Below, piece by piece: positions 1,648 through 12,335 of a stretch of 64,000 nt of DNA. Each line of letters begins with the position of its first letter. The stretch's first letter is position 1. Below the pieces are notes generated by a model. It worked only from the letters and a program-made list of their open reading frames with translations. It ran no database searches and had not been told where the DNA came from. The stretch is from Deltaproteobacteria bacterium (GTDB lineage: Bacteria; Desulfobacterota; Desulfuromonadia; Desulfuromonadales; Geopsychrobacteraceae), in NCBI GenBank assembly GCA_024280335.1, contig JAJRQI010000009.1, positions 1 through 64,000 of the forward strand. Reading direction: 5' to 3'. The position numbers and the translations under genes are program-made.

Positions 1648-1996
1648 CATGTAACCTTTTCGTATCATACGCAACAGCGCCTGCGCTGTGCGGCAGCCGG
1701 ACAAAGGGACTTCACATTGAAGTTCCTTTTTGTTTTTGCTCACTTACAAACCTAATGAACAATTTGGTACGATTTGTGGACAGACACAACGCAAGGCGAC
1801 GTACAAAAGAGCCGGTTGTGCCGAGCAAAACCCTTGCTATCATTAAAGCCAATCGGCGCAGCGCCCGCACCTTGCCGCAATCATCTCTGTTCACCCGGCA
1901 TATTTAGCCGCTTTTGCAGCAGTTGTTAATTGATCGTTGCCGTCCAGCCGTAAATTGAAAAGTCACAGTCTTATTTGCTGAATAAAAGGAGTGATC
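1648..1996. other. Intergenic region upstream of the nar operon
   Basis: 349 bp without a convincing gene. It holds the terminator at 1706-1737. I looked for GG-N10-GC sigma-54 elements and for TTGAT-N4-ATCAA FNR sites and found none with the right spacing. The nar promoter and its operators should lie in about 1740-1985 but cannot be placed by eye. Confidence 0.5.
1706..1737 (+). terminator. Intrinsic terminator after the PAS/sigma-54 activator
   Basis: A 9-bp stem GGGACTTCA / TGAAGTTCC (one G-T pair) with a 3-nt loop is followed by TTTTTGTTTTT. It separates the regulator transcript from the nar operon. Confidence 0.8.
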
Positions 1997-2524
1997 ATGT
2001 CGGGAAACAGGTTCGGTCTGTCCGTCGTCATCTTGGCACTGCTACTGTTCTGCCCGCCGGCAGAGGCCGAAGCAGCCGGTGATCCCAGTCGAGGCGAGGC
2101 GCTGTTTGTGGGGAGAATGGCATTCGAAAATGGCGGTTCTCCCTGCCTGGCCTGTCACAATCTGACCGGTGTCGGCATCAGCGATGGCGCCAGCTACGGC
2201 CCGGATCTGAGTGCTATGTATGAGGACTATGGTGCGGAGGGCGTCGCCGGGGTGCTGGAGTCGCTGGAGTTTACCAGCATGGCAGCGATCTACGCCGACC
2301 GGCCGCTGAGCGAGGCCGAGCAGGTCGACCTGATCGCCTACTTCGAACAGACCTCCAAACTATCGGCAACGCCGGATAATGGAAAATTGGCCATGCTGGT
2401 CATCCTCGGGGTGGCGATCCTCTTGGTGTTCACCTTCCTGATCGGCAAACGGCGCTTAAAAGCAGTACGGCAACCGCTGATCGATCGTCAACGCAACCTC
2501 ATCAACAAAGGTGGTCTGCAATGA
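1997..2524 (+). CDS. Membrane-anchored monohaem cytochrome c of the nar operon (NarC-like)
   Basis: 175 aa. An N-terminal signal peptide (about 1-28, ending near AEA) exports the protein. One haem c motif, CLACH, is at residues 50-54, and a C-terminal membrane helix (about 131-150) followed by a basic tail anchors it with the haem domain in the periplasm. It overlaps narG by 4 bp (ATGA), so the two are co-translated. A cytochrome c leads the nar operon in Thermus (NarC) too, where it passes electrons into the nitrate reductase; that role is inferred here. The ATG at 1997 is preferred to the GTG at 1991, because the AAGGAG site ends at 1991 and leaves normal spacing only to the ATG. Confidence 0.85.
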
Positions 2525-5500
2525 GCTGGATTAAAGATATTATCGATCCCAAGGCCAGAGCGTGGGAAGAGTTCTACCGGAATCGCAACCAGTGCGACAA
2601 AGTGGTACGCAGTACCCACGGCGTCAACTGTACCGGTGGTTGCTCCTGGAACGTGCATGTCAAAGACGGCATCGTCGGCTGGGAGTTGCAGGCGACCGAT
2701 TATCCCGCCCTCGAAGAGGGTCTTCCGCCCTACGAACCGCGCGGCTGCCAACGGGGGATCTCCTTCTCCTGGTACCTCTACAGTCCGTTACGGATCAAGT
2801 ACCCTTACCTGCGCGGCACCCTGACCGATCTCTGGCGGGCCGCCAAGGCTGAACATGCCGACCCGGTCGTCGCCTGGGCCTCGATCGTCGAAGATGAGGA
2901 GAAGCGCAAAAGCTATCAAGTGGCGCGCGGCAAGGGTGGTTTTCGCCGGTCCAACTGGGACGAGGTGGAAGAGATCATCGCCGCTTCGACCGTCTACACC
3001 ATTAAAAAGCATGGTGCCGACCGGCTGGTTGGGTTCTCACCGATCCCGGCCATGTCGATGCTCAGTTTCGCCGGCGGTTCCCGCTTCATGCAGCTGCTCG
3101 GTGGCGCGAACTTGAGTTTTTATGACTGGTACTGCGACCTGCCGAACGCCTCGCCGGAGATCTGGGGCGAGCAGACCGACGTCGCCGAGAGCGCCGACTG
3201 GTACAACAGCAAGTTCATTGCCGTGATGGGCTCCAACCCCGGCATGACCCGCACCCCCGATGTTCATTTCCTGACCGAAGCGCGCCACAACGGCTCCAAG
3301 GTCACGGTTCTCTCGCCCGATTTCAGCATGTCCTCGAAATTCGGCGACCAATGGATTCCGGTCCACGCCGGACAGGACGGCGCCTTCTGGATGGCGGTCA
3401 ACCATGTCATCCTCAGCGAATTCCACCACCAGGCCCAGACGCCCTACTTCATCGATTACTTAAAGCGCTACACCGACACCCCGTTCCTGATCCAGCTGGA
3501 GGAGAAGGATGGCGCATATACTGCGGGGCGGATGGCCAAAGCGGTCAGCCTCAAGCGCTACAAGGATGAAGAGAAGGCCGATTTCAAGTTCCTGGTCTGG
3601 GATGAGCAGAGTCAGCAACCGCGCATGCCGCTCGGCACCCTGGGTTTTCGCTGGCAACAGCAGAAGGGTGAGTGGAATCTGCAGATGAAGGATGGTCAGG
3701 ACGGCAGCCCGATCGCGCCGGCCCTCTCTTTTGTCGACAGCCATGAAGAGGTGCTGCAGGTCATCTTTGACGATTTCGCCGATGACCAGACCGTCCGCCG
3801 CGGCGTACCGGTGCAGTATCTCGATACGCCCGACGGACAAGTGCCGGTGACCACCGTCTTTGATCTGCTGATGGCGCAGTTCGGTGTCGGCCGCAGTCTG
3901 GCTGGCGAATACCCGCAAAGTTACGATGCCGAAAACAGCGCCTACACCCCCGCCTGGCAGGAAAAATATACCGGCATCGACCGGGCCACCGTCATCCAGT
4001 TTGCCCGGGAGTGGGCTGCTACGGCGGAAAAGACCGAAGGCAAATGCTCGATCATCATCGGCGCCGGAATCAACCACTGGTACCACGCCAATCTGATCTA
4101 CCGCGCCGGGATCGTCTCGCTGATGCTTTGCGGTTGCGTCGGCAAGAACGGCGGCGGCCTCAATCATTATGTCGGCCAGGAGAAGTTGGCCCCGATCGCG
4201 CCTTGGGCGACGATCATGGGAGCCCTCGACTGGAGTAAGCCGCCCCGCTTCATGAACGCTCCCTCTTATCACTATGTGCATAGTGATCAGTGGCGCTACG
4301 AGCGGACCGCCGATGAGATCCAGATCAACCCGGCGGCAAAGAAGAACCATATCACCGAAGGTCACACCATCGATCATCAGATCCGTGCGGTCCGCAACGG
4401 CTGGCTGCCCTTCTATCCACAGTTTGACCGCAGCCCGACTGAGGCAGTCAAGCAGGCCGAAGCCGACGGAGCAAAGAGCAACCAGGAGATCGTCGACTGG
4501 ACGGTCAAACAGCTGACTGAAAAGAAGATGAAGTTCGCCGTCGAAGACCCCGACGCGCCGGAGAACTGGCCGCGAATGTGGATTATCTGGCGCGGCAACG
4601 CCCTGATGTCGAGCGCCAAGGGACATGAGTACTTCCTCAAGCACTATCTTGGCACCCATACCAGCACGGTTGCCCCGGAGACCGCCAAGGAATCGGTCAA
4701 GGATGTCGTCTGGCGTGACAAAGCGCCGGAAGGAAAACTCGACCTGGTGGTCGACATCAACTTCCGTATGGACACCTCGGCGCTCTATTCCGACATCGTC
4801 CTGCCGACCGCTACCTGGTACGAGAAGGACGATCTCAACACCACCGACATGCACTCCTTCATCCACCCGCTGCAAGAGGCGGTCGCGCCCTGCTGGGAAT
4901 CGCGCAGTGACTGGGATATTTTCAAATCGCTGGCAAAAAAGGTCAGCGAACTGTCCGAGGTCCATCTGCCCGATCCGGTTCGCGATATCGTCGCGGTGCC
5001 GCTGGCCCACGATACCCCGGCGGAGATGGCCCAGCCGGAGATCAAAGACTGGTCGAAGGGAGAGTGTGAAGCGATCCCCGGCAAGACCATGCCGAACTTC
5101 GTGGTGGTCGAGCGTGACTACAAGAATCTCTACAACCGCTTCATCTCCTACGGCCCGAACCCGCGCAAAAACGGTATCGGCGCGCACGGGCTGAACTGGC
5201 AGATTGAAGAGTTCTACGATGAACTGCTGGAAAACAACCCGACCGTCGAATGGGACGGCAATAAATACCCCTCGCTGATCGATGCCAAAGAAGCCGCCAA
5301 CATCATCCTGCATCTGGCGCCGGAAACCAACGGTGAAATGGCCTACAAGGCGTTCCAGGCCGAAGAAGCCAAGGTCGGCGTGCCGCTGCTCGATCTGGCC
5401 GAGAAAACCCGCGGCGTGCGCACCACCTTCGCCGACCTCGACCGGCAACCGCGCCGCCTGCTGACCAGCCCCTGCTGGAGCGGACTGATCAACGACGGCC

Positions 5501-6144
5501 GCGCTTATACCGCCTACAGTCTCAATGTCGAACGGCTGGTGCCCTGGCGCACCCTGACCGGTCGCCAGCATTTCTATCTCGATCACGAAAGCTACATCGC
5601 TTACGGCGAGCACCTGCCGACCTACAAGCCGAAACCGGATCCGAGCGTCCTGCAGGATCTGATCGTCACCGAAACGCAAGAAAAGAGCATCATGCTCAAC
5701 TACCTGACCCCGCACGGCAAGTGGAGTATCCACAGCACCTACGGCGACAACCACCGGATGCTGACCCTGTCGCGCGGCTGCCACCCCTTCTGGCTCAACG
5801 ACCAGGATGCCGCCGAAATCGGCGTGGTCGATAACGACTGGGTAGAGGTCTACAACGATCACGGCGTGGTCGTCACCCGGGCGGTTGTCAGTTCCCGGCT
5901 GCCGCGGGGGATAGCGTTCCTCTACCACTCACCGGAACGGACCGTCGGGGTGCCCAAATCGCCATTGCGTGGCAACAAACGCGGCGGTGGCCACAACAGC
6001 CTCAACCGGATCCGCCTGAAGCCGAACCTGATGGTCGGCGGCTACGGCCAGTTCACCTACGGCTGGAACTACTGGGGACCGACCGGCGCCAACCGGGACA
6101 CTTTTATTCTGGTCCGCAAGCTGACCGGTGAACCGCAATGGTAA
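2521..6144 (+). CDS. narG: Respiratory nitrate reductase, alpha (catalytic) subunit NarG
   Basis: 1207 aa, close to the usual 1200-1250. It reduces nitrate to nitrite at a molybdenum bis-MGD centre, taking quinol electrons through NarI and NarH. The FS0 cluster ligands follow the family pattern H-x3-C-x3-C-x34-C: H33, C37, C41, C76. The molybdenum ligand is D206 within WYCDLP. The N-terminus has no twin-arginine export signal, which fits the cytoplasm-facing bacterial type rather than the archaeal outward type. The start overlaps the stop of the cytochrome c gene. A long open frame on the opposite strand (3460-5928) is a shadow of this gene. Confidence 0.98.
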
Positions 6145-6153
6145 TGGGGATAT

Positions 6154-6257
6154 CTGTAGGGGCGAATCTTGTATTCGCCCGCTTTCGGGTCGTAAACGCC
6201 CAGGGCGATCACACCGGGGAAAAAGGCGGGCGATCACAAGGATCGCCCCTACGGCAG
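6154..6257. repeat. Inverted-repeat element between narG and narH
   Basis: The left arm starts CTGTAGGGGCGAATCTTGT and the right arm, read on the other strand, starts CTGCCGTAGGGGCGATCCTTG. Each arm also forms its own hairpin (GGGCGA...TCGCCC). It fills almost all of the 136-bp gap between two genes that normally lie close together. A related element is at 62415-62498. It is probably a non-autonomous mobile repeat; an effect on the NarG/NarH expression ratio is possible but not shown. Confidence 0.75.
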
Positions 6258-6280
6258 GGATTTAATTCAGGAGACAAATC

Positions 6281-7768
6281 ATGAATATACGTGCACAGGT
6301 ATCCACGGTTTTCCATCTCGATAAATGCATCGGTTGCCATACCTGCAGCGTCGCCTGCAAGAATCTCTGGACCGACCGCAAGGGTGCCGAATACATGTGG
6401 TGGAACAATGTCGAAACCAAACCGGGGACCGGCTATCCGACCAAATGGGAGGACCAGGAACAGTACAAGGGCGGCTGGGAGCGCTCCGGTTCACAACTGC
6501 AATTGAAGATGGGCGGCAAGGCGAGCAGTCTCGGCAAGATCTTTCACAACCCCGATCTGCCGACCATGGACGACTACTACGAGCCGTTCACTTTCAAATA
6601 CGCTGACCTAACCAACGCCCCGGCCGGAAAGGATCAGCCGACCGCCCGACCGGTCTCGATGGTCAGCGGCAAGCCGATGAAGATCGAAGCTGGCCCCAAC
6701 TGGGACGATGACCTCTCCGGCTCCAATATCTACGCGGCCAACGATCCGGGCGTGGTGCAACTGAGCGAAGAGGAGCAGCAACAGCTGTTCGCCATCGAGA
6801 AGATGGTCTTCTTCCACCTGCCGCGCATCTGCAACCATTGCCTGAACGCCGGTTGTGTCGGCAGCTGTCCGTCCGGTGCCATCTACAAACGGGGCGAAGA
6901 CGGCATTGTGCTGATCAATCAGGATAAGTGCCGCGGATGGCGGATGTGCGTTTCCGGCTGTCCCTACAAAAAAACCTACTACGGCTGGACCACCGGCAAA
7001 TCGGAGAAATGCATCCTCTGCTACCCGCGACAGGAAGCGGGCGAAGCGCCAGCCTGTTTCCACTCCTGCGTCGGTCGCATCCGCTACCTGGGGGTGCTGC
7101 TTTACGATGCCGACCAGATCGAGGCAGTGGCGATGAAGGAAGATAGTGAACTGGCCGCCGCACAGCGCGAGATGATCCTCGATCCACATGATCCGCAGAT
7201 TCAAAAAGCTGCCCTCAAGGCGGGGATTGCCGAAGAGGTGCTGGCTGCCGCGCAGGCTTCACCGGTCTATAAATTTGTCAAGGAGTGGGGCATCGCCCTG
7301 CCGCTGCATCCGGAATTCCGCACCCTGCCGATGCTGTTTTACGTGCCGCCGTTGTTGCCGGTGCTGTCGATGGAGAACCAGGGTTCGCAGAAAATGGCTG
7401 AGGACTTCTTCACCACTTTGGAAAATGCCCGGTTGCCGATGCGCTACCTGGCGGGTCTGTTTGCCGGCGGCAACGAAGAAGAGGTAAAAGCGGTCTACCG
7501 CCGCCTGATCGCCGTTCGCATTCAGCGCCGCAGCGCCACCGTCGGTGACATGGATGAAGCCGAAGTGGTCAAGGCGCGTGAGATTGCCAAGGTAAGTAGC
7601 GAGCAGATTGAAGCGATCTACCGCATGACGGCTTTGACCCATATCAAGCAGCGGATTGTCGTTCCGCCGATGCTGCGGGACCGGGCGATTGAAGCGGGGA
7701 TCGACCCAGAGACCTACAAGCAGGAGATGGGCTTCGGCAAGCGTCAGGCGCCGAAGAGACGGTGGTAA
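6281..7768 (+). CDS. narH: Respiratory nitrate reductase, beta (iron-sulfur) subunit NarH
   Basis: 495 aa electron-transfer subunit that carries electrons from NarI haem to NarG. Four cluster-binding groups are visible: C16/C19/C22/C26; C184/C187/C192/C196; C217/W220/C223/C227; and C244/C247/C259/C263. The tryptophan at 220 in CRGWRMC replaces a cysteine, the hallmark of the [3Fe-4S] site of NarH. Residues after about 270 form the typical NarH C-terminal region. A CAGGAG ribosome site precedes the ATG just after the repeat element. It acts on the cytoplasmic side of the membrane in the NarGHI complex. Confidence 0.98.
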   Translation: MNIRAQVSTVFHLDKCIGCHTCSVACKNLWTDRKGAEYMWWNNVETKPGTGYPTKWEDQEQYKGGWERSGSQLQLKMGGKASSLGKIFHNPDLPTMDDYYEPFTFKYADLTNAPAGKDQPTARPVSMVSGKPMKIEAGPNWDDDLSGSNIYAANDPGVVQLSEEEQQQLFAIEKMVFFHLPRICNHCLNAGCVGSCPSGAIYKRGEDGIVLINQDKCRGWRMCVSGCPYKKTYYGWTTGKSEKCILCYPRQEAGEAPACFHSCVGRIRYLGVLLYDADQIEAVAMKEDSELAAAQREMILDPHDPQIQKAALKAGIAEEVLAAAQASPVYKFVKEWGIALPLHPEFRTLPMLFYVPPLLPVLSMENQGSQKMAEDFFTTLENARLPMRYLAGLFAGGNEEEVKAVYRRLIAVRIQRRSATVGDMDEAEVVKAREIAKVSSEQIEAIYRMTALTHIKQRIVVPPMLRDRAIEAGIDPETYKQEMGFGKRQAPKRRW

Positions 7769-7770
7769 TC

Positions 7771-8316
7771 ATGACCAGCTTACAGACCCACCAGGATATC
7801 TGTCGACAATTCGCCGTGCTGCTCAGTTACCCGGACAGCGGGGTACTGACCAACGCTGCTGTCTGCCAAAAACTGCTGCAGGAAGATCGCCCCGAAGCCG
7901 CCCCACAGCTGCAAAACTTCATCGAGCGGCTGGAGAACGCCGATCAGGCACAGATCGAGGAGATGTTCACTTCGACCTTCGATCTGCAACCGCTCTGCCA
8001 CCCCTACGTCGGCTATCAACTCTGTGGCGAAAGTCAGCAGCGCACCATGTTTCTGATCAAATTGCAGGAAGTCTACCGGCTGCATGATTACAACTCCGGC
8101 AGTGAACTACCTGATCATATCAGCGAAATGTTGCGGTTTATCGGCATCACCGACGATCAGAACTGTCGCCGGGAACTGATCGACGAGGGCTTGCTGCCGG
8201 CCCTGGAAAAGATCATTCCGGCGATTGAAAACGATAACCATCCCTACAAGGGGCTGCTCAAAGCCCTGCAAAGCTTTTTGAGCGGAAGCAGCGCGGAAAA
8301 AGGAGCACCATCATGA
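7771..8316 (+). CDS. narJ: Nitrate reductase assembly chaperone NarJ
   Basis: 181 aa member of the TorD/NarJ chaperone family. NarJ binds apo-NarG and helps insert FS0 and the molybdenum cofactor before the complex docks on NarI. The protein is largely helical and acidic, with the conserved HPYVGYQL-like segment near residues 72-79. The ATG at 7771 is chosen over an upstream GTG at 7762 that would overlap narH; both have only weak ribosome sites. It starts 2 nt after narH stops and overlaps narI by 4 bp. Confidence 0.93.
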   Translation: MTSLQTHQDICRQFAVLLSYPDSGVLTNAAVCQKLLQEDRPEAAPQLQNFIERLENADQAQIEEMFTSTFDLQPLCHPYVGYQLCGESQQRTMFLIKLQEVYRLHDYNSGSELPDHISEMLRFIGITDDQNCRRELIDEGLLPALEKIIPAIENDNHPYKGLLKALQSFLSGSSAEKGAPS

Positions 8317-8990
8317 TCGACATGATTCTATTCGGCGTATTCCCCTATGTAGCGGTCGCCCTTGCGGTTGCCGTCGGCATTTACCGCTACTGCTTCGACC
8401 GCTACTCCTGGTCGTCGCAATCGTCGCAGTTTCTCGAAAGCAAGGCGCTGTTCTGGGGCTCGGTTCCTTGGCACTACGCGATTCTGCTGATTCTGCTGGC
8501 GCACCTGCTGGCCTTTCTGTTCCCGAGTGCCTGGGGGGCGTTGCTTGGTGAACCGGGTCGACTTTATTTTCTGGAAGTGACCGGCATCGCCCTGGGCGTG
8601 ACCACGATCCTCGCCATGCTGGTGTTGATTTTTCGCCGGGCGGCTAACGACCGCGTCTGCGCGGTCACCAGCAAGGTCGACTGGGCGCTGCTGATCGCCC
8701 TGCTGATTCAGGTTACCAGCGGTGTTTATATCGCCGTAACCCTGCGTTGGGGCGGCTTCTGGTATGTGCATACGGTATCACCCTGGCTCTGGTCGCTGGT
8801 CGGCTTCAGCCCGAAGATTCAGTATCTGGCCGAAATGCCGTTCATCGTCAAGCTGCACGCCTTCAACGCCTTCTTTCTGCTGGCGCTGTTCCCCTTTTCC
8901 AGGCTGGTCCATGTGGTCAGTGTACCGCTCTCCTACATCAGCCGCCCCTATCAGGTGGTGGTTTGGTATCGGCAGCGGAGCGGTAATTGA
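8313..8990 (+). CDS. narI: Respiratory nitrate reductase, gamma (cytochrome b) subunit NarI
   Basis: 225 aa integral membrane protein with five predicted helices that oxidises quinol at the outer face and carries two b haems. The four haem ligands are visible as H54, H64, H182 and H200; their spacing (10 and 18) matches E. coli NarI H56/H66 and H187/H205. An AAAGGAG site precedes the ATG, which overlaps narJ's stop codon. It is the last gene of the narCGHJI set before a repeat-bearing gap. Confidence 0.97.
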   Translation: MIDMILFGVFPYVAVALAVAVGIYRYCFDRYSWSSQSSQFLESKALFWGSVPWHYAILLILLAHLLAFLFPSAWGALLGEPGRLYFLEVTGIALGVTTILAMLVLIFRRAANDRVCAVTSKVDWALLIALLIQVTSGVYIAVTLRWGGFWYVHTVSPWLWSLVGFSPKIQYLAEMPFIVKLHAFNAFFLLALFPFSRLVHVVSVPLSYISRPYQVVVWYRQRSGN

Positions 8991-9197: not shown

Positions 9198-10724
9198 ATG
9201 ATGGAACAAAAGGCGACTGCCACATCGCATAAAGTCCTGTTTCTCAACACCCTGGCGTTTACCGTCTGTTTTGCCGCCTGGATGTTCAACGGCGTGCTGG
9301 TCACCTTTCTGGCCGACAATCAGGTGTTCGACTGGGGACCGATCGAAATCGGCTGGCTGATGGGGATTCCGGTGCTGACCGGCTCTATCTTCCGCCTGCC
9401 GGCCGGAATGCTGACCGATAAATTCGGTGGCAAACCGATTTACGGCAGCCTGCTGTTTATCTGTGCGGTGCCGATGTTCCTGCTCTCCAAGGCTGACAGT
9501 TTTACCAGCTTCGCTCTGTGCAGTTTCGGCTTCGGCCTGGCCGGGGTCAGTTTTTCGATCGGCATCGCCTTTTCGTCGGTCTGGTACCCGCGCGAACGTC
9601 AGGGGACGGCGCTGGGGATCTTTGGTGCCGGTAACGCCGGGGCAGCACTGACCACCCTGTTTGCCCCGACCCTGCTCAATCGCCTGACCGACAACGGCGC
9701 CAATATTGAAGGCTGGCGGCAACTGCCGATCTACTACGCCATTCTGCTGGCGGCGATGGGCGTGATCTTCTTCATCTTCGCGGAAAACAAGAAACCTGCC
9801 TCATCGACCAAAAGCTTCCGCCAGATGCTGACGCCGCTGAAAAATGTCCGGGTCTGGCGGTTCGGCCTCTACTACTTTCTGGTCTTCGGCTGCTTCGTCG
9901 CCTTTTCACAGTGGCTGGTCCCCTACTTTGTCAACGTCTACTATCTGCCGCTGGTCACCGCCGGGATCTTTGCCTCGATGTTAAGCCTGCCCTCCGGGAT
10001 TATCCGCGCCCTGGGCGGCTGGCTCTCCGATCTGTTCGGCGGCCGCACCATTATGTACTGGGTGCTCGGCGCCTCGGTCATCATCAGCTTTCTGGTGATT
10101 ATCCCGCGGATGGAACTCTACTCGCCGGGACGCGGGGTGATGGCAAAAAGAGCTGGCGTGGTCACTGCCGTCACCCCTGGAGCGATCAGCGTTGCAGATA
10201 GAACCTATCCGCTGAAGGTCAAACCACAGAATTTGGAGACGTACGATGACCAGCTGCTGGTGCTGCCGACCAAGAACGCCTGGCAAGAGTCGATCGTCGA
10301 AGTCGGACAAGAGGTCAAGAAGAAGGAGCTGCTGGCCAAAGGCGTCACGCGGATCTTCTTTCAGGCCAATGTCTGGATCTTCGCCATCTTCATCATCCTG
10401 CTGGGAAGTGTCTGGGGGATCGGCAAGGCGGCGGTTTACAAGCTGATTCCCGATTACTTTCCCGACGAGGTCGGCGTGGTCGGCGGCATGGTCGGCGTAC
10501 TGGGGGGACTGGGCGGTTTCGTCTGCCCGATCATCTTCGGCTACCTGCTTGAATGGACCGGGTTGTGGACCAGTTGCTGGATTTTCATGTGCGGACTGTC
10601 GCTGGTCTGCCTGCTCTGGTTGCATCTGACCACGCAGAAACTGATGAAAGAAAAACACCCTGAGGATATGAAGAAAATTGAGCAGGATAAATTCACCATC
10701 GTTGAAGATGCCTTAAAGGAGTAG
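9198..10724 (+). CDS. NarK1-type nitrate/nitrite transporter (MFS) with an extra loop domain
   Basis: 508 aa nitrate/nitrite porter of the major facilitator superfamily with 12 predicted helices. The nitrate-porter glycine-rich motif is seen around helix 5 (GIFGAGNAGAA) and again near helix 11. It would import nitrate for cytoplasm-facing NarG. About 88 residues (303-390) between helices 9 and 10 are hydrophilic and start with GRGVMAKRAGVVTAV and end with VEVGQEVKKKELLAKG, a pattern like biotinyl/lipoyl barrel-sandwich folds. By the helix count this loop faces the periplasm. The start has a choice of two adjacent ATGs (9198, 9201), with AAAGAGG further upstream. Confidence 0.93.
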   Translation: MMEQKATATSHKVLFLNTLAFTVCFAAWMFNGVLVTFLADNQVFDWGPIEIGWLMGIPVLTGSIFRLPAGMLTDKFGGKPIYGSLLFICAVPMFLLSKADSFTSFALCSFGFGLAGVSFSIGIAFSSVWYPRERQGTALGIFGAGNAGAALTTLFAPTLLNRLTDNGANIEGWRQLPIYYAILLAAMGVIFFIFAENKKPASSTKSFRQMLTPLKNVRVWRFGLYYFLVFGCFVAFSQWLVPYFVNVYYLPLVTAGIFASMLSLPSGIIRALGGWLSDLFGGRTIMYWVLGASVIISFLVIIPRMELYSPGRGVMAKRAGVVTAVTPGAISVADRTYPLKVKPQNLETYDDQLLVLPTKNAWQESIVEVGQEVKKKELLAKGVTRIFFQANVWIFAIFIILLGSVWGIGKAAVYKLIPDYFPDEVGVVGGMVGVLGGLGGFVCPIIFGYLLEWTGLWTSCWIFMCGLSLVCLLWLHLTTQKLMKEKHPEDMKKIEQDKFTIVEDALKE

Positions 10725-10730
10725 CCTATC

Positions 10731-12335
10731 ATGCCTATCAATCTGGAAAAGTGGGACGTTGAGGACGAACAGTTCTGGGAGTCCGAAGGAAAGAAGATCG
10801 CCAGCCGCAACCTGTGGATCTCGATCCCCAGCCTGCTCTGCGGCTTTGCCGTTTGGCTCTACTGGGGCATCATCACCGTGCAGATGCTCAATCTGGGCTA
10901 TCCGTTCGACAAATCGCAGCTGTTTACCCTGTCGGCGATTGCCGGATTGACCGGGGCGACGCTGCGGATTCCCAGCTCTTTTCTGATCCGCATCGCCGGT
11001 GGCCGCAACACCATCTTCTTTACCACTGCCCTGCTGATGCTGCCGGCGGTCGGTACCGGCATCGCCCTGCAGGACGTCAACACGCCGATCGAAGTCTACT
11101 ACTTCCTCGCCCTGCTCTCCGGTTTCGGCGGCGGCAACTTTGCCTCGTCGATGTCGAACATCAGCTTCTTCTTCCCGAAAAAGGTTCAGGGCACTTCGCT
11201 CGGTTTAAATGCCGGACTGGGCAACTTCGGCGTCACCACCATGCAGATCCTGATCCCGCTGGCGATGACTTTCGGCCTGTTCGGCGGCACCCCACAGACC
11301 CTGATCAACACCAGCGGCACCCTGATCGGCAAGATTCCGGCCGGCACCGAGACCTACATCCACAACGCCGGTTATATCTGGCTGATCTTCCTGATCCCAC
11401 TGGCCGTTGCCGGCTACTTCGGCATGAACAACATCAAAACCAAGACGGTCACCCCTAATCTCGGTTCTGCCGGCAAATCATTTGCGATGATCACCGGCCT
11501 GCTGCTGATCGCCTTTGTCACGGCAATCGCCGGTCTCTACCTGCTGCTGCCGCCGCCGGTCGGGCTGGGTTTGCTGAGCAAATGGATCGTACTGCCGCTG
11601 GTTATCGCCGCCACCGTCTTCGGCATGAAGTATCTGACCAGCGGCGGGCTGCGTGAAAACCTCGACCGCCAATATCAGATTTTCAACAACAAACATACCT
11701 GGGCGATGACCATCATCTACACCATGACCTTCGGTTCCTTTATCGGCTACTCAGCGGCCTTCGCCCTGTCGATCAAGGTTATCTTCGGTTTCTCACATAT
11801 CATGGTCGACGGGGTCATGACCCACAATACCATCAACCCCAACGGTCCCAGCGCACTGATGTTCGCCTGGATGGGGCCGTTCATCGGTGCGCTGATCCGT
11901 CCGATCGGCGGCAAGATCGCCGACAAGCTCGGCGGTGCCATCGTCACCCAGTGGGTTTCGATTGTGATGATCGTCTCGGCGCTCGGTTGCGCCTACTTCA
12001 TGAAAGCTGCCTATGCCTCCGCCACTCCGGAGACGGTCTTCGTGCCTTTTTTGATCCTGTTTATCGTGCTGTTCGCTGCAACCGGTGTCGGCAACGGTTC
12101 AACCTTCCGCTCAGTTGCCATGATCTTCAACGCCGAACAAGCCGGACCGGTACTCGGTTGGACCTCGGCAGTCGCCGCCTACGGCGCCTTCATCATCCCC
12201 AAGGTGTTCGGTGAGCAGATCAAGGCAACCACCCCGGAAAATGCCCTGTATGGATTTGCCATCTTCTACTTTATCTGCCTGGTGCTGAACTGGTGGTTCT
12301 ATACCAGAAAAGATGCCTATATCCAGAACCCCTGA
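10731..12335 (+). CDS. NarK2-type nitrate/nitrite transporter (MFS)
   Basis: 534 aa, 12 predicted helices, the second nitrate/nitrite porter of the pair. The nitrate signatures are GFGGGNFASSMSNISFFFP (around residues 130-148) and GVGNGSTFRS near the C-terminus. It begins 6 nt after narK1 with an AAAGGAG site. Denitrifiers often pair a NarK1-type proton symporter with a NarK2-type nitrate/nitrite antiporter, sometimes fused; here they are separate genes. An N-terminal soluble stretch of about 25 residues (rich in W, E, D) precedes the first helix. Confidence 0.93.
   Translation: MPINLEKWDVEDEQFWESEGKKIASRNLWISIPSLLCGFAVWLYWGIITVQMLNLGYPFDKSQLFTLSAIAGLTGATLRIPSSFLIRIAGGRNTIFFTTALLMLPAVGTGIALQDVNTPIEVYYFLALLSGFGGGNFASSMSNISFFFPKKVQGTSLGLNAGLGNFGVTTMQILIPLAMTFGLFGGTPQTLINTSGTLIGKIPAGTETYIHNAGYIWLIFLIPLAVAGYFGMNNIKTKTVTPNLGSAGKSFAMITGLLLIAFVTAIAGLYLLLPPPVGLGLLSKWIVLPLVIAATVFGMKYLTSGGLRENLDRQYQIFNNKHTWAMTIIYTMTFGSFIGYSAAFALSIKVIFGFSHIMVDGVMTHNTINPNGPSALMFAWMGPFIGALIRPIGGKIADKLGGAIVTQWVSIVMIVSALGCAYFMKAAYASATPETVFVPFLILFIVLFAATGVGNGSTFRSVAMIFNAEQAGPVLGWTSAVAAYGAFIIPKVFGEQIKATTPENALYGFAIFYFICLVLNWWFYTRKDAYIQNP

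Follow-up and report, generated by a model that had tools for sequence, protein, structure and literature searches.

The stretch of DNA analysed here (in the following, the window) comprises the first 64,000 nucleotides of contig JAJRQI010000009.1 (GenBank assembly GCA_024280335.1) from a deltaproteobacterium of the Desulfuromonadales. It carries a nar cluster in which the genes of a respiratory nitrate reductase are followed by two genes for nitrate/nitrite porters, narK1 and narK2 (Table 1). The product of the small gene just upstream of narG, for which no Pfam match at E <= 0.001 was found, is probably a membrane-anchored cytochrome c, judging from its heme-binding type motif and hydrophobic end. 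Upstream of the cluster (268-1647) lies the gene of a sigma-54 activator with a PAS domain and a Fis-type HTH, possibly the regulator of the nar genes. Between TM6 and TM7, NarK2 displays two additional peaks of hydrophobicity, at 260 and at 288, a pattern that suggests a 14-helix protein; this stretch (residues ~250-297) is present in 62 of 92 aligned NarK2-like rows (query counted) and missing in 30.

Table 1. Features of the nar cluster and of the narK1 insert (positions in the window; residues of NarK1)
Feature	Position	Strand	Basis
Small protein, one CxxCH motif and C-terminal hydrophobic segment, just upstream of narG	1991..2524	+	Sequence inspection
narGHJI, encoding the respiratory nitrate reductase, upstream of narK1	2521..8990	+	TIGR01580 (narG), TIGR00351 (narI); Pfam for H and J
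narK1, MFS nitrate/nitrite porter, 508 aa, domain inserted between TM9 and TM10	9198..10724	+	ORF; MFS_1; TIGR00886
Inserted domain (predicted periplasmic barrel-sandwich, RpoB (SBHM/HABAS) type), residues 304-388	10107..10361	+	AlphaFold2; RNA polymerase fold matches; RpoB profile matches
Residues 304-315, RMELYSPGRGVM: conserved, first of the long strands	10107..10142	+	Entropy; alignments
Distal loop (residues 341-356), varying in both length and sequence	10218..10265	+	Entropy; low pLDDT
Segment 357-377, W-Q-E-(P)-x-V-x-V-G-(D/Q)-x-V-x-K-K, GD-box-like turn common to RpoB	10266..10328	+	RpoB alignment; conservation
Residues 378-391, LLAKGVTRIFFQAN: last long strand with its link into TM10, most conserved part of the insert	10329..10370	+	Entropy; model strand 378-388
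narK2, second nitrate/nitrite porter, without TM9-TM10 insert, directly downstream of narK1	10731..12335	+	

NarK1 matches the Pfam family MFS_1 (E 8.6e-47), Pfam marking no domain in the insert, and the NCBIfam model TIGR00886 (E 8.3e-53), the latter with 179.8 bits in two stretches and thus below the cut-off of 311.7. This cut-off seems narrow, since the NarK2 of the window falls below it as well (268.3 bits). The closest relatives of NarK1 among PDB sequences are the nitrate/nitrite porters of E. coli, and the top Foldseek match is NarK (4u4v, E 1.0e-13). Moreover, R66, Y226 and R270 of NarK1 are invariant across 73 aligned rows and align with R89, Y263 and R305, which PMC4432589 gives as key residues of E. 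coli NarK. Judged on fold and key residues, and despite the score below cut-off, NarK1 is a NarK-like porter with predicted nitrate/nitrite transport.

According to both hydropathy and an AlphaFold2 model of the full-length protein (mean pLDDT 84.9, pTM 0.78), helix 9 spans residues 282-301 and helix 10 residues 392-420. The two are thus separated by about 88 residues, the number counted in a preliminary description of this DNA. In MFS transporters the N-terminus lies inside and the loop between helices 9 and 10 is periplasmic. As the N-terminus is inside and the GG(K) and GGWLSD motifs of loops 2-3 and 8-9 are presumably cytoplasmic, the insert should face the periplasm, the side on which the preliminary description had put it. 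The span given there, 10105-10367, does hold the domain, although its first base is two bases out of frame (in frame, the domain begins at 10107). The adjacent NarK2 was said to have no such insert, and alignment bears this out.

In the whole-protein model the insert forms strands at residues 305-315, 320-325, 329-332, 335-338, 358-365 and 378-388. The pLDDT amounts to 80-90 at 311-340 and 84-87 at 361-380, and is lower at the base of the domain (64 at 301-310, 69 at 381-390, 74 at 391-400) and within 341-360 (72 and 65). When residues 304-388 are modelled by themselves, with 73 aligned sequences as input, they yield the same strands at a mean pLDDT of 88.7, only the block 344-353 being low (63) and all remaining blocks reaching 85-96. 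A disordered loop had been named as the outcome that would speak against a domain; a folded domain is predicted instead, its low confidence confined to the distal part when it is folded alone. In the 73 sequences nine positions of the insert are invariant and 15 nearly so, which argues against a chance sequence. We therefore regard the insert as confirmed, by these models and by the fold matches given below (Foldseek and VIA), to be real and folded into a beta domain of the barrel-sandwich type, the class that had been proposed for it.

Conservation of the insert is distributed unevenly. Among 66 representatives of 115 rows, it peaks in the membrane-proximal strands, mean column entropy being 1.10 bits in the first strand and 0.68 in the last strand with its link into TM10, and is lowest in the distal loop (2.81 bits). 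The links of the domain to TM9 and TM10 comprise about three residues each in the AlphaFold2 model. In the membrane core, 27 of 392 columns are conserved within the insert-bearing clade yet different in eight or more of the ten insertless proteins compared, including N31, T36, F37, L38 and W46 in TM1 and loop 1-2. Such clade-specific columns make up 14 of 139 in the periplasmic third, eight of 105 in the middle and five of 148 in the cytoplasmic third (Fisher p 0.031 for periplasmic versus cytoplasmic and 0.093 for periplasmic versus all other columns, at thresholds of our own choice). Covariation between insert and core gave no firm signal at an effective number of 49 sequences. The end of TM1 and the loop TM1-TM2 (residues 37-50, window 9306-9347) are two residues longer in the insert-bearing clade, and W46 is near-invariant there (64 of 66), the ten insertless proteins compared all having L.

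Which barrel-sandwich family the insert resembles was examined with a profile of the inserts (A2), which, like the profile A1 used further below, holds 72 of 80 loci plus the window, eight near-copies being omitted. Searched against PDB sequences, A2 finds RpoB first (E 0.002), and RNA polymerase beta subunits account for 38 of the 42 matches listed at E <= 10. When the 73 inserts are scanned singly at E <= 10, the RpoB model NF001616 is matched by 68 of them (best E 2.9e-5; window insert 0.0043) and TIGR02013 by 53. The predicted fold points the same way: Foldseek returned 289 matches at E <= 10, none of them at or below 0.001 (best 0.014), and the best 50 are all RNA polymerase. So are the best 50 of 647 chains found with VIA (Z 7.7-9.1, rmsd 3.9-4.7 over 69-71 residues), where 14 of the 647 reach Z 8 and values below 8 may merely reflect a common arrangement; that other families do not show up among these 50 says nothing against them.

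Genome searches with A2 yielded a similar picture. In a six-frame search of the own genome at E <= 10, only two matches were obtained, NarK1 itself (8.2e-38) and a frame of 1375 residues (3.1e-4) that NCBIfam identifies as rpoB; nine biotin/lipoyl matches and one RnfC_N match present in the same genome were not hit by the insert profile. Over 297 genomes of the phylum of the window, insert-type matches occur in four (E <= 2.5e-37), and all other matches listed sit in frames of 874-1563 residues, three of which (in L084, L088 and L089) were checked by NCBIfam and are rpoB. In a single hhalign comparison with seven RpoB segments, A2 aligns over 63 columns (positions 8-80) with 38% identity and E 6.4e-11.

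Other barrel-sandwich families fit less completely. The RnfC_N domain (PF13375; 16 of 17 chosen loci used as control) gave a partial match of 31 columns, and the biotin/lipoyl attachment domain (PF00364; 20 of 20 loci) one of 18 columns, with only the G-(D/Q)-x-V turn in common, a control weakened by at least three lipoyl rows being short fragments. From these extents (63 columns against 31 and 18) we derive the RpoB type. Single inserts matched several Pfam families at E <= 10, namely RnfC_N in 34 of 73 (best 5.1e-4), Biotin_lipoyl in ten (best 0.017) and DUF5666 in ten (best 0.0011), the window insert being in none of these three sets, as well as Peptidase_M23 in eight and Biotin_lipoyl_2 in four (best 0.0012). 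The motif around a modified lysine, which we take to mark attachment domains, was not seen on reading the insert. For a HlyD-type fold, in which a helical hairpin splits the barrel-sandwich, the comparison covered the AlphaFold2 models, and these contain no helix within the insert. With regard to a PepT-type fold of two immunoglobulin-like lobes, the insert is modelled as one domain of 85 residues that matches RNA polymerase; PepT structures do not occur among the matches listed, which carries no weight against that type.

By profile and by fold, the nearest relative of the insert is thus the RpoB barrel-sandwich domain (SBHM/HABAS) and not the lipoyl/biotinyl domains, and common descent with RpoB is likely on these sequence comparisons. 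Of the lipoyl- or HlyD-like reading in the preliminary description, the barrel-sandwich class holds and the lipoyl/biotinyl family gives way to the RpoB type, HlyD having been assessed on models alone. At the turn itself, the first glycine of the GD-box of PMC11515920 is G in 61 of 66 representatives and N in five, and the position matched to its second glycine is K or R in 61 and G in three. Nine inserts (L124-L132) have N for the GD-box glycine (NQ for GD/GQ) and keep the domain; their nine genomes show no NarI match.

The relatives of NarK1 were collected by a genome scan with six peptide patterns, one of which (IFFQANVW) lies partly within the insert. The insert is carried by 80 of 80 relatives kept, a figure that is no census, as the scan is pattern-based and found 117 relatives, of which these 80 were kept. 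According to the record titles, many of which belong to MAGs and may be wrong, the bearers include Desulfuromonadales, Bacteroidetes, Planctomycetota, Ignavibacteria, Chloroflexi, Acidobacteria, Myxococcales and others. The longest inserts (L134, L135 and L136) measure 117 residues between flanks where the window has 94. Profile A1, which could also pick up insertless members of the clade through the membrane core, gave 25 full-length matches plus one to residues 13-297 only in 296 genomes of the Cyclobacterium phylum. In 251 genomes of the phylum of the Dehalococcoidia record, the insert type occurs in one, while 24 matches end at residues 292-307 and are insertless in alignment (one is a fragment). 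In 247 genomes of the phylum of the window itself, there are three full-length matches and five partial ones, again insertless in alignment. A sample of 395 genomes, meant for Pseudomonadota and reached through a record titled Ectothiorhodospiraceae, yielded 31 matches, including a fragment of 201 residues and one to residues 13-297 only; the matching genomes are mostly those of the Cyclobacterium-phylum set, title and grouping being at odds, and the sample cannot stand for the chromosomes of Pseudomonadota. Among plasmid records, 192 relatives were found, none covering 80% of the query, and in the best 30 of each of two listings the alignments stop at residues 283-318. None of 68 pattern matches in viral contigs encodes a relative.

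Of 147 proteins compared, 114 have the insert and 33 have none. A quick maximum-likelihood tree over 390 membrane-core columns (built from 23 of the 33 insertless proteins and from 36 of the 114 with the insert, to which the window protein was added; no bootstrap, midpoint-rooted, with long-branch warnings) separates the 37 insert-bearing rows from the 23 insertless rows by one branch (SH-aLRT 99), so that one change accounts for the distribution. The nearest insertless proteins, the NarK1 of Thermus, Deinococcus, Paracoccus and Roseomonas and that of one genome of the Dehalococcoidia-record phylum, have 13-18 residues at the site of the insert. In alignments the flanks of this short loop line up with the first and last strands of the insert, which suggests insertion into an older short hairpin. 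A single gain followed by retention therefore seems to be what sequence, tree and model support: the ancestor of what is now a widespread NarK1 subfamily would have acquired an RpoB-type domain in its periplasmic loop between TM9 and TM10, in a single event and probably at such a hairpin. The more specific proposal that the domain was captured from rpoB, or directly shares its ancestor apart from the other barrel-sandwich families, and then became a fixed cis part of the transport cycle, we consider doubtful.

The preliminary description had further suggested that the domain might gate transport, sense a ligand or bind a partner such as the cytochrome c or NarI. Near the gene, a narI match occurs in 69 of 80 loci, a narK2 match likewise in 69 (at least two being cross-hits to NarK1) and a cytochrome-like match in 42, counts that are limited by the locus ends and include matches down to 24% identity. 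Of 25 insert-bearing genomes not chosen by context, ten lack NarI (PF02665), 12 lack NarK2 (E <= 1e-25) and seven lack both. With chosen loci added, NarI is missing in 15 of 35, NarK2 in 20 of 40 and both in nine of 35; the 35 are the 25 from the Cyclobacterium phylum plus ten loci mostly picked for few nar matches, and the 40 include five loci picked for lacking NarK2, so that the counts over 25 are fairer. Genome completeness is not given, and some of these absences may be gaps. The genomes that lack both proteins include that of the isolate Fulvivirga imtechensis. NarK2 was accordingly rejected as an obligatory partner, and NarI in that role is contradicted by its absence from ten of 25 genomes chosen without regard to context and 15 of 35 overall.

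As to its role, we favour the reading, at a probability of roughly 0.4, that the insert acts in cis, as a brace or lid on the periplasmic side of the C-bundle. Tied by short links, the domain could keep TM9 and TM10 joined at their outer ends when TM10 bends, in its cytosolic half, at conserved glycines, and it may also cover the outer mouth of the porter. Bending of TM10 at glycines is described for E. coli NarK in PMC4432589. Such holding would follow from links of about three residues each, whose stiffness is uncertain given the low whole-model pLDDT at the domain base. Besides the short links, conservation next to the membrane and retention in genomes without NarI or NarK2 would fit a brace or lid, and the periplasmic bias of the clade-specific core residues supports it weakly. 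Against it stands that insertless NarK1 evidently does without the domain. By analogy, the PepT domain is clear of the N-bundle, and the PepT2 domain and the hairpin of Rv1410 are dispensable for transport; that an unrelated domain at the same site can be spared in PepT2 counsels caution on function.

The same PepT1/PepT2 precedent at the TM9-TM10 site can be turned to another account, in which the domain is a docking platform that recruits a periplasmic or membrane protein, as has been proposed for PepT and trypsin. Candidate partners in respiratory clusters would be the cytochrome c and NarGHI, with some other protein taking their place elsewhere, and the frequent narI and cytochrome-like neighbours would suit this. 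The absence of a fixed partner among NarI and NarK2 and the position of the distal loop as the least conserved part of the domain make docking a rather unlikely, if possible, main role. Alternatively, the domain might aid biogenesis or shield the outer loop with no part in the transport cycle. A purely structural module of this kind agrees with a conserved base and variable tip and with the removable elements of PepT2 and Rv1410, and it is harder to reconcile with an insert kept in all 80 relatives retained of 117, also in genomes without NarI, and with insertless NarK1 that copes without it; we hold it to be unlikely. Conserved basic residues (K or R at 375 in 65, 376 in 61, 304 in 60 and 381 in 58 of 66 representatives) and a mean net charge of +1.6 over 115 inserts (+4 in the window) could point to an antenna that concentrates nitrate at the mouth or senses it. 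Since the net charge spans -8 to +8 and the RpoB segments are basic around the same turn, so that these residues may be structural, an antenna appears very improbable. A disordered linker or annotation artefact, finally, finds some footing in the low pLDDT at 341-360 and is scarcely credible next to the confident remaining blocks and the presence of the insert in every relative kept. The brace or lid remains our preferred reading.

These observations describe a nitrate porter subfamily with a predicted folded periplasmic domain, with bearers from Desulfuromonadales to Bacteroidetes, Planctomycetota and Chloroflexi, and they add a membrane transporter to the places where the RNA polymerase type module occurs. 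They also provide, in insert-bearing versus insertless NarK1, a natural comparison for what outer domains do in MFS transport. No earlier description of the domain in NarK was found in literature titles and abstracts, where earlier mentions are possible. Within our literature search, which may likewise have passed over earlier mentions, PMC11515920 (2024) alone names an MFS transporter with this domain: it uses the name HABAS and, in one phrase, counts a 'major facilitator superfamily transporter protein' as a bearer. The passages on HABAS give neither position nor function of the domain in that case, which may or may not belong to the NarK1 family, and the word 'nitrate' is absent from the main text.

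Among known systems, the RpoB domain itself (SBHM; HABAS in PMC11515920) agrees with the insert in fold, strand order and the segment Q-x-P-x-V-x-V-G-D-x-V-x-K. It differs in that LADG/IADG of RpoB reads LA(K/R)G in the NarK1 inserts, and in that it is part of a cytoplasmic transcription enzyme, whereas in NarK1 the domain would be periplasmic and lies between two membrane helices. Within the porter family, NarK and NarU of E. coli have the same substrate residues as the NarK1 of the window, and so do the NarK1-type porters of Thermus, Paracoccus, Roseomonas and Deinococcus. The latter four are 39-40% identical to the window protein and have their short loop of 13-18 residues in place of the insert. 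The TM9-TM10 site also bears extra elements in other transporters, for example a Kazal-type domain in the organic anion transporters (OATPs).

Further examples come from the literature. In Rv1410/MHAS2168 the same site holds a small periplasmic beta-hairpin and no domain, reported as dispensable for lipid transport in PMC10576003. PepT1 and PepT2 have a beta-rich soluble extracellular domain between TM9 and TM10 (PMC8565842, PMC4597091), which consists of two immunoglobulin-like lobes, whereas the NarK1 insert is predicted to be a single domain of unrelated fold. The PepT domain is described as not touching the N-bundle (PMC8565842) and, in PepT2, as removable without loss of transport (PMC4597091). 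According to PMC8565842, no MFS transporters other than PepT1 and PepT2 are known to have an extra domain between TM9 and TM10; the NarK1 subfamily is a predicted counterexample. If the domain was indeed captured and acts in cis, which we think improbable at present, it would be the prokaryotic counterpart of what PepT1 and PepT2 have between TM9 and TM10, with an unrelated fold.
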